Source: a virus
Reading direction: 5' to 3' (one strand)
Virus record (IMG/VR): IMGVR_UViG_3300023443_000128
Span: 1-30,746 of that record
DNA: 30,746 nucleotides
The first letter of the stretch is position 1, and every line of letters starts with the position of its first letter. This document shows positions 10,663 to 12,269 of this stretch, one piece after another. The position numbers and the translations under genes are program-made. The notes below the pieces were generated by a model. It searched no databases, was not told where the DNA came from, and worked only from the letters and a program-made list of their open reading frames with translations.

Positions 10663-11205
10663 TTAAATAGGTGAATTTTCCAGCAAAGCCAGGTCGTGAC
10701 ATTCCTGCTCATTAACCATGTTCATTTTCTCCTTGAGGCTGAATTGATTAACGACCGTCATACACTCACCCTTGAACCACTCGCCGCGCAATTTATGCTT
10801 CTTACAGAGTCGGTGCAGCTTTTTTTCTGCCGAATATGCTGGCTTACGCTCGCGGCCAATATAAAACTTCCACAGCACCCGCAATTTCTTTGGATGGCCT
10901 GTTTGCATAGAGTTGAGACGATTACCGATATTCGTACTAACTCCCAGTTTCACGCACTCCCCGTCACCAATAGCGTACAGGTGGTATTTTAAGGCCTTCT
11001 CAGGGGGTTTATCCTTGTTCCGGTAGACGAGTGACCTGACCAGAGATACTTGCTTAGGCGACCAGTACTGATTGGATAGATACCACCTCAGAAGAGAAGT
11101 AGCCATTTCTCGATCACTACAAGGTTTCGCGGTTAAAGCTTGGAGCTGAATAAGTAACTTCTCATTTCCGCCCGCTTTGTACTTCTTTTTTTTTCTTCTA
11201 GACAT
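10663..11205 (-). CDS. GIY-YIG (T5orf172/MUG113-like) nuclease-domain protein
   Basis: 180 aa. A very basic N-terminus (MSRRKKKKYKAGG) and a helical region (20-65) precede a GIY-YIG-superfamily domain at about 74-150: YHLYAIGDGECVKLGVSTNI, then GNRLNSMQTGHPKKLRVLWK, an AEKKLH segment with the candidate catalytic Glu127, and GEWFKG. This pattern is that of T5orf172-type proteins, some of which cut DNA while others are regulators. ATG 11205 has a GGGAAAGGGA site. The gene lies directly downstream of the structured RNA at 11206-11956 and is probably on the same transcript. The basic N-terminus could bind RNA or DNA; a link with that RNA is speculative. Confidence 0.75.
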   Translation of the reverse strand: MSRRKKKKYKAGGNEKLLIQLQALTAKPCSDREMATSLLRWYLSNQYWSPKQVSLVRSLVYRNKDKPPEKALKYHLYAIGDGECVKLGVSTNIGNRLNSMQTGHPKKLRVLWKFYIGRERKPAYSAEKKLHRLCKKHKLRGEWFKGECMTVVNQFSLKEKMNMVNEQECHDLALLENSPI

Positions 11206-11433
11206 AACTATGTCCCTTTCCCATAAGTAGGGTAGGCATTATCTGCCTTACCGAACCGTATGGTACTTAGGTTCCCCGTTTGATTTTCCCACAAGCAGTG
11301 GTCCCGAAATATGACGTGGATGCAAGGTTCAGCATCGCCACGATTTACCACTCCGTATTTTCTGTCTTGAGTGCCTGACCAGGTTCGTTCGCGTTTTCGT
11401 CAGTGTCGATCGTTACTGCATCTAGTGAACTGA

Positions 11434-11543
11434 CAGAGTAATTATGAAGGGGTGCTGCTATCGGGAGTCGAACCCGTGTGACTTACCAGACCCGAATTCT
11501 TACAGGCCATCACTTTTTACAACACCACCACATAATTACTCTG
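11434..11543 (-). ncRNA. Module 1: 13-bp clamp around a degenerate tRNA-like fold
   Basis: CAGAGTAATTATG (11434-11446) pairs perfectly with 11531-11543. Inside, 11451-11457 pairs with 11520-11526 (7 bp, one G-U only on the minus strand) like an acceptor stem. A T-arm-like hairpin with loop TTCGACT (minus strand) occupies 11462-11476. GTGA/TCAC (11478-11481/11510-11513) closes an apical arm containing the palindrome GAATTC. Four unpaired bases between the T-arm and the acceptor-like stem, and no convincing D-arm, make it a poor functional tRNA. Confidence 0.55.
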
Positions 11544-11553
11544 GGTAGGCGGG

Positions 11554-11728
11554 AATCTGTATTGAAGAGAGTGGGCGGGCAGGGCTCGAACCTGCGACAC
11601 ATACCGGCTAAATGAGGAATCAGGTCATGACTCCCTATCCTGTCAGAGTCCAGTACTGCTCTCCCAACTGAGCTACCGTCCAGCCCCGTTTCATGTATAG
11701 GGGCCCTCTACTCTCATCAATACAGACT
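11554..11728 (-). ncRNA. Module 2: 19-bp clamp enclosing a tRNA-like cloverleaf
   Basis: Bases 11554-11572 pair with 11710-11728: 19 positions with one A/A mismatch (11566/11716) and one pair (11555/11727) that is G-U only on the minus strand. The clamp encloses the tRNA-like sequence at 11572-11682 and an extra hairpin CCCC/GGGG (11684-11687/11700-11703). A clamp of this length around a tRNA is not a feature of ordinary tRNA precursors. Confidence 0.6.
11572..11682 (-). tRNA. tRNA-like cloverleaf with oversized anticodon arm
   Basis: Read on the minus strand: acceptor TGGACGG/CCGCCCA (11676-11682/11572-11578, one A-C mismatch), TA, D-arm GCTC-AGTTGGGA-GAGC (11658-11673) with the conserved GG, and T-arm GCAGG-TTCGAGC-CCTGC (11579-11595) directly abutting the acceptor. 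Between them GTACTGG/CCGGTAT (11650-11656/11601-11607) forms an anticodon-like stem, but instead of a 7-nt loop it carries 42 nt that fold further into GGAGTC-ATGACCT-GATTCC (11616-11634). Candidate anticodon is GAC in that apical loop, or CTG in the 5' part (GGACTCTGA) if an intron-like segment were removed. No CCA is encoded. Probably a structural mimic rather than a decoding tRNA. Confidence 0.45.
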
Positions 11729-11748
11729 CAGGAAGGCTTAAGAAGGGA

Positions 11749-11821: not shown

Positions 11822-11947
11822 AAGGGCCAATATCTACAGACCCTAGAGACTTGGGGCGGAGAAAGAGAACACTTGGTAGTATTTACCTTGCTCTCTAACG
11901 CCTGTAGATATTAACCCTTAATCTCTTTCTCTCAAAAGCGCTACCAA
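11822..11947 (-). ncRNA. Module 4: 11-bp stem with crossing long-range helices
   Basis: AATATCTACAG (11829-11839) pairs perfectly with 11902-11912, extended by AAGGG/CCCTT (11822-11826/11915-11919) across a 2x2 internal loop. Inside, GGTA/TACC (11875-11878/11884-11887) and AGAG/CTCT (11864-11867/11891-11894) can form. Two further helices leave the module: GAGAAAGAGA (11859-11868) with 11922-11931 (10 bp) and TTGGTAG (11873-11879) with 11941-11947 (7 bp). They cross the main stem and each other, so they are pseudoknots or alternative folds. This is the 5' end of the minus-strand RNA. Confidence 0.55.
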
Positions 11948-11962
11948 ACGCCTACATGGACA

Positions 11963-11992
11963 ATTATAAGGCAACACCTCGCATAATTACAA
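11963..11992 (-). promoter_or_regulatory. Promoter for the structured RNA (minus strand)
   Basis: TTGTAA (11992-11987) lies 18 bp before a perfect TATAAT (11968-11963). Transcription would begin near 11956 and run left through modules 4 to 1 and into the GIY-YIG gene. There is no minus-strand coding frame between this promoter and 11205, so its immediate product is RNA. Confidence 0.65.
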
Positions 11993-12041: not shown

Positions 12042-12269
12042 ATGACAACAGTTGCAGCGTTAATAGTAGCCGGTGGGCCTGGAATGTTTTGTGGCGCGAC
12101 ACTATCAGCAGATAAGACCGTCAAGATAGAGCAGCCCTGTAATTGCCTTGGGCCTCAAGTGGTCGATGGAAAGCTTGAGCCGGCCTGTCCTTGTGCTATG
12201 CGGCCCATGAGGATATTTGAGAGTAAGCGTCCATCGAATGACGGTAAAGCTCCAGACTGGGACGTATAG
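12042..12269 (+). CDS. Small Cys-rich hypothetical protein, 75 aa
   Basis: ATG 12042 follows GAGGGGGAATT, a strong ribosome site, and an extended -10 promoter. The first 25 residues (MTTVAALIVAGGPGMFCGAT) are hydrophobic and Gly-rich but lack the basic start of a signal peptide. The centre has CNC and CPC pairs (QPCNCLGPQVVDG, PACPCAMRP) that could bind a metal. It is an isolated plus-strand gene between two minus-strand blocks, transcribed divergently from the structured RNA. No family recognised. The direct repeat CGACATCG occurs twice just after the stop. Confidence 0.7.
   Translation: MTTVAALIVAGGPGMFCGATLSADKTVKIEQPCNCLGPQVVDGKLEPACPCAMRPMRIFESKRPSNDGKAPDWDV

Follow-up and report, generated by a model that had tools for sequence, protein, structure and literature searches.

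A clamped tRNA-like RNA with a rebuilt anticodon arm in phage contigs, a candidate family of non-decoding tRNA mimics

Introduction

What purpose is served by a tRNA-like body whose anticodon arm has been inflated and whose acceptor end is enclosed in a long stem? The question is raised by an IMG/VR phage record, here called the window (the whole stretch of 30,746 nucleotides that was analysed), which encodes a P22-like portal protein and a large terminase. The tRNA-like structures lie in an 836-nt gap between an ORF at 10663-11205(-) and an ORF starting at 12042(+). An earlier note on this DNA had proposed a tRNA captured as a structural module, an intron-bearing tRNA, or bait for tRNA-cleaving host defences.

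Structure of the clamped element

The element is encoded on the minus strand, a point absent from the earlier note. The near-canonical acceptor, D-arm and T-arm described there were borne out by a match of the Rfam tRNA family RF00005 to 11571-11682(-), at 35.7 bits against a gathering threshold of 29, with a long insert in the anticodon arm. The parts, all on the minus strand, are as follows.

11571..11682 (-): tRNA-like body; RF00005 35.7 bits, 160.7 bits with model R1 (described below)
11676-11682/11572-11578 (-): acceptor stem
11658-11673 (-): D-arm
11650-11656/11601-11607 (-): anticodon stem
11579-11595 (-): T-arm
11608..11649 (-): 42-nt anticodon-arm insert, with conserved hairpin UAGG(9)CCUG at 11634-11637/11621-11624
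11711..11729 (-): clamp, 5' strand; 18 of 19 positions pair with 11553-11571
11553..11571 (-): clamp, 3' strand; it follows on from the 3' strand of the acceptor without a break, leaving no free discriminator or CCA
11683..11710 (-): 5' hairpin with loop AUACAUG and a CGGGGC stem, filling the 28 nt that separate the acceptor from the 5' strand of the clamp
11434..11543 (-): second clamped tRNA-like; its 13-bp clamp (11531-11543/11434-11446) is perfectly paired

The acceptor (UGGACGG/CCGCCCA) forms six of seven pairs with one A-C mismatch, and the D-arm, the T-arm and the 5-nt variable loop are all canonical. As the earlier note had it, the anticodon stem (GUACUGG/CCGGUAU) is 7 bp long and encloses 42 nt; the second hairpin placed within that loop, with AUGACCU as its own loop, is possible in the window as a 6-bp hairpin, but the relatives described below conserve UAGG(9 nt)CCUG there instead. 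The clamp, reported as 19 bp, proved to be paired at all but one position, with one U-U mismatch and one G-U, and was equalled by none of 2000 shuffles of the flanks. Measured as an ungapped helix score (duplex energies of the flanks were dropped as too noisy), it reaches 13.8; among 620 ordinary phage tRNAs just 5 reach a score of 11, and most of these are repeats or tandem tRNAs.

The overall layout of a clamped tRNA-like was thus confirmed, but the 28-nt hairpin and the second tRNA-like had been overlooked. With that hairpin on the 5' side, and with the clamp directly continuing the acceptor on the 3' side, the helices meet in a three-way junction. No CCA is encoded at the acceptor end, and a closed clamp precludes the formation of a 3' CCA end. 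ARAGORN called no tRNA in the window element with introns off and, with introns on, an implausible 'tRNA-Stop(tta)' with a 37-nt intron; no other Rfam family was matched at the element. The second tRNA-like adjoins the first and is more degenerate. Its body (11451-11526) consists of an acceptor stem and a canonical T-arm with T-loop UUCGACU, one long arm replaces the D- and anticodon arms, no Rfam tRNA match was obtained, and its 13-bp clamp was again equalled by 0 of 2000 shuffles.

Relatives in other phages

When 2.9 million viral contigs were searched with a pattern requiring a D-arm and T-arm 48-78 nt apart, at least 120 stretches were obtained. Among the matches listed, 80 have at least six of seven acceptor pairs and no overlap with an ordinary tRNA, and only one, L151, has the window's insert and a strong clamp in the same geometry. 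A narrower pattern scan of viral contigs gave a second relative, L224. The clamped family therefore comprises at least three members, all of them environmental contigs whose records are possibly incomplete. Four other pattern matches (L219-L221 and L222) were rejected as chance or ordinary tRNA, and no copy of the clamped element was found with the exact tRNA pattern or among relatives of the GIY-YIG protein encoded downstream or of the terminase. By terminase, the L151 and L224 phages are not closely related to the window phage: the window terminase has no match in the L151 record and a weak one in the L224 record (30% identity over 234 residues).

Model R1, built from the window and L151 only, matched the unseen L224 with 91.1 bits (E = 4.8e-18), whereas all other tRNAs and tRNA-likes compared, ordinary or otherwise inflated, scored at most 53 bits. 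In all three members the D-arm is intact, the anticodon arm is extended and the T-arm is present (with two mismatches in the T-stem of L151), and U8, A14, G15, G18G19, C48 and TTCGANY are kept. The insert motif ATAGGG-N8-CCTGA-N5/6-CATTTAG is common to the window and L151, and within it TAGG(9)CCTG, the UAGG(9)CCUG hairpin of the RNA, is invariant in 3 of 3. The clamps span 19 positions in the window, 27 in L151 and 18 in L224; the 5' clamp strand stands 28, 27 and 30 nt from the acceptor, with a hairpin in each case, and the gap between the acceptor 3' strand and the clamp is zero throughout. The loop and stem of the 5' hairpin are conserved between the window and L151, and L224 has a 30-nt hairpin of looser sequence in the same place. 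L151 and L224 each fold alone into the clamped cloverleaf (z = -5.4 and -5.2, respectively).

Pairwise comparison of the clamps showed that 11, 10 and 11 of 18 shared pairs differ on both sides and yet pair, with one-sided changes numbering 0-2, so the clamp is maintained as a structure. In the core alignment 88% of cells pair, against at most 49% with partners slid; covariation there is weak because only three pairs differ on both sides, and invariant helices are unable to show it. The occurrence of the same design, with different stem sequences, in two unrelated phages argues for a real conserved RNA and not a broken tRNA gene. The capture of a tRNA as a structural module is likewise well supported by the two further phages with a clamped, rebuilt tRNA body and a covarying clamp. 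Other tRNA-likes with clamps of 13-18 bp were also seen (L152 5910-6037, L181 2660-2791, and L182); their sequences are unrelated to the window family, and the clamps of L152 and L181 extend the acceptor directly.

Genomic setting and a possible cis-acting role

On the minus strand the whole 836-nt gap folds with z = -4.2. It holds further features that bear on a role for the element in its own transcript.

11963..11992 (-): promoter-like TTGTAA-18-TATAAT, a consensus match only (2 occurrences, against a chance expectation of 1.6)
11822..11919 (-): long hairpin (28-nt arms, 82% complementary) with a U-run (GCCCUUUUUUGUG) after it, upstream of the tRNA-likes
11315..11345 (-): conserved hairpin CRYGG-CRAUGCYNAACCUUGYAU-CCRYG, preceding the GIY-YIG ORF
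10663..11205 (-): downstream ORF of GIY-YIG type (MUG113/T5orf172; Pfam PF13455 5e-9, PF10544 1e-5)

By consensus match, the hairpin and U-run at 11822..11919(-) would be a terminator-like or leader RNA domain, and in Vibrio phages tRNAs are again preceded by a hairpin with the GCCCUUUUUUGUG end. An ORF of the GIY-YIG type (MUG113/T5orf172) is also present in Vibrio phage 1.110.O, where a homologous 3' hairpin comes before it and the gap holds an ordinary tRNA-Met. Similar gaps in other Vibrio and Pseudoalteromonas phages hold 0-3 ordinary tRNAs, several of them preceded by a hairpin whose end is GCCCUUUUUUGUG or closely similar, a feature shared with the window. Since related phages keep ordinary tRNAs in the gap, the tRNA-likes of the window occupy an ordinary-tRNA slot.

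Two of these hairpins merit separate description. At eight loci of Vibrio phages, tRNA arrays or slots are preceded by a long hairpin with AAGCCCUUUUUU(GUG), or a sequence close to it, at its end; this hairpin is likely a late-leader terminator or antitermination RNA. The CRYGG...CCRYG hairpin occurs in four phages (window 11315-11345, L082 5872-5906, L088 1292-1335, L089 1934-1969), with an ORF shortly downstream, compensatory changes in the stem and no Rfam match, and is likely a 5'-UTR regulatory element. In L089 it lies directly upstream of the ORF with no tRNA nearby, and is thus a separate element.

Preceded by a promoter-like site and by a conserved hairpin of terminator-like form, and followed by a conserved 5'-UTR-like hairpin and same-strand genes, the element might act in cis within a late leader transcript, in which tRNA-likes, hairpin and terminator-like domain would control the processing, stability or read-through of downstream genes. 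We consider this unlikely, because the L151 and L224 copies lie among different genes and without that leader, a difference in setting that instead marks the clamped element as portable. No neighbouring protein is common to all three loci, and the neighbourhoods thus give no pointer to a partner.

Intron-bearing or working tRNA as an unlikely alternative

Long stems flanking pre-rRNA are RNase III processing sites, and the clamp could be such a stem; it may instead block normal 5' and 3' processing, as the earlier note had supposed. The element could then be the precursor of a working tRNA, its clamp cut by RNase III, its ends trimmed by RNase P and 3' exonucleases, and its insert spliced out or tolerated. 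Such a precursor is in keeping with the ordinary tRNAs that related Vibrio phages carry in this slot, ahead of the same ORF, and with the seemingly removable short inserts of other phage tRNAs, but the insert is conserved between phages and CCA is not encoded. An exhaustive deletion test of the insert was also unfavourable. Against 14.5 for a perfect canonical anticodon arm, the best spliced arms scored 9 in the window, 10 in L151 and 6 in L224, with U33 or purine 37 missing or the stem poor. That the test is able to detect removable inserts was indicated by the restoration of an arm scoring at least 13 in 30 of the 80 inflated phage tRNAs (among the matches listed), compared with 3% of shuffled inserts. 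As none of the three members regains a canonical anticodon arm after any cut, an intron-bearing tRNA, as the earlier note had suggested, is unlikely, and a tRNA precursor in general is rather improbable. A group I intron was rejected in addition, on a criterion of more than 200 nt or a family match: the insert is 42 nt long, and the Rfam scan found no intron family.

The scans also brought out other inflated tRNAs. Seventeen IMG/VR loci carry tRNA genes with 40-52 nt inserts at 28/29 or 29/30; once the insert is taken out, the anticodon stem is perfect and the loop in most cases canonical (Thr, Ile, Asn, Arg and others). A 7-bp hairpin with a 4-nt loop and then (A/T)ACAGC(A/G)A recurs in many of these inserts. 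As a class they resemble very short tRNA introns or inserted modules, and Rfam intron families gave no match at the scanned loci bearing them. A second kind of rebuilt anticodon arm, with the common sequence CCTCATGGTGAAGGACCAAA..CGC..GGGAATAAA, was seen at eight loci. One tRNA-rich phage contig also encodes a HEARO RNA (L112 14095-14337(-); RF02033, 139 bits).

Known RNA classes as alternatives

YrlA is an RNA of 90-150 nt in which the 5' and 3' ends form a large stem and a tRNA-like domain has D, T and acceptor arms (PMC8394870). A Y RNA of this type, in which the clamp would be the stem bound by the Ro60/Rsr ring and the tRNA-like domain would tether PNPase, has in its favour this shared combination of end-to-end stem and tRNA-like domain (PMC8394870), and also the presence of YrlA-like RNAs in phages. 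Three of four YrlA features are nonetheless missing from the clamped element, the tRNA-like domain with a long end-to-end stem being the one present. RF02553, which scores 47.8 bits in an Enterococcus phage, matched none of the three records (window, L151, L224) at E <= 10; a PF05731 search of these records, possibly fragments, gave no TROVE (Ro60) gene at E <= 1; and RF02553 runs T-arm, loop-closed acceptor, D-arm, whereas the clamped element has D before T and its stem on the acceptor. There is accordingly little probability that the element is a Y RNA.

The Enterococcus phage is PEf771, where an unannotated array of circularly permuted tRNA mimics was found (L228 740-1580; MN241318 about 77370-78210); L229 is a further such locus. 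In these mimics the T-arm comes first, then a closed acceptor and the D-arm, and ACAGC(A/G)A and long end stems are present; their score with RF02553 lies below the cut-off of 69, and the phage has no TROVE gene. The stem and ACAGCRA element are common to these mimics and to the short tRNA inserts described above, in opposite arrangement.

GOLLD linkers sometimes hold phage tRNAs (PMC12286853), and the element might belong to a large ornate RNA of the GOLLD/ROOL type, as the fold of the whole gap and a possible 14-bp outer helix around it would allow. This is very improbable: no such model matched at E <= 5 in the window region or at E <= 0.5 in related loci, the element stands alone in L151 and L224, and the outer helix was rejected because it overlaps the conserved 3' hairpin and, with its 5' arm upstream of the promoter-like site, falls outside the likely transcript. 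Least credible of all is a decaying tRNA gene with chance inverted repeats, which the acceptor mismatch and the second tRNA-like without a D-arm might suggest, but which is contradicted by the shuffles of the clamp and by the relatives: across the three phages the clamps covary and the insert is conserved.

A proposed non-decoding tRNA mimic

What remains in the element is a tRNA body with the elbow residues intact, an anticodon arm rebuilt around the fixed UAGG(9)CCUG, and an acceptor end enclosed in a long stem, with the 5' junction occupied by a hairpin. The tRNA elbow is recognised by RNase P, several tRNA-modifying enzymes and T-boxes. As the elbow residues are kept while the anticodon and acceptor end are given up, we infer, with a confidence close to but short of an even chance, that the phage produces a tRNA mimic, conserved and non-decoding, which would engage an elbow-binding factor. 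The RNA would fold into the L-shape of tRNA, would be neither charged nor decoding, and may be retained for its binding to an elbow-recognising host factor. Candidate partners are RNase P, a tRNA-modifying enzyme, a tRNA-targeting defence protein and PNPase, the last by analogy with YrlA; the RNA might act as decoy or tether for such a partner, and the clamp would provide stability and exclude the RNA from translation. Bait for tRNA-cleaving defences, as the earlier note had also proposed, is possible from the sequence; the anticodon loop, target of known anticodon nucleases, is missing from the element. That the members represent a new phage RNA family of non-decoding tRNA bodies, with covarying clamp and fixed anticodon-arm motif, serving as decoys or tethers for a host elbow-binding protein, possibly a tRNA-targeting defence enzyme or RNase P, is put forward with more doubt than conviction. 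If true, a phage family with elbow kept, acceptor sealed and anticodon arm rebuilt would reveal which tRNA-binding host proteins phages must occupy. The class escapes tRNA gene finders run without intron settings, and rebuilt anticodon arms are probably no rarity in phage contigs, to judge by the pattern scans.

Comparison with known systems

Non-decoding tRNA mimics are few (tmRNA, YrlA and viral tRNA-like ends), and the clamped family is placed among them as a new family; T4 rnaC and YrlA were rejected as homologues on model and topology. T4 species 1 RNA (rnaC), which the element resembles, is a known stable phage RNA with a canonical T-arm, acceptor-like ends and rebuilt D- and anticodon arms, and its gene clusters with tRNAs and a GIY-YIG endonuclease gene. 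It is closest in kind to the second tRNA-like (11434-11543), is without the D-arm, clamp, 5' hairpin and UAGG(9)CCUG insert, and model R1 found no match to rnaC at the locus compared (L223). tmRNA is a tRNA mimic with acceptor and T-arm within a larger RNA. It has a free, charged CCA end and no D stem, whereas the clamped element has a full D-arm and a sealed acceptor, and the Rfam tmRNA models gave no match. The GOLLD region resembles the present one as a large phage noncoding region with a tRNA (PMC12286853), but neither by sequence nor by model is there a match, and the tRNA there is ordinary and here it is clamped and rebuilt. Nearest in concept is YrlA, a non-decoding tRNA mimic with D, T and acceptor arms and a long stem formed from the RNA ends (PMC8394870). 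The stem of YrlA lies at the anticodon side, whereas the clamped element carries its stem on the acceptor side, together with an extra 5' hairpin and a conserved insert.
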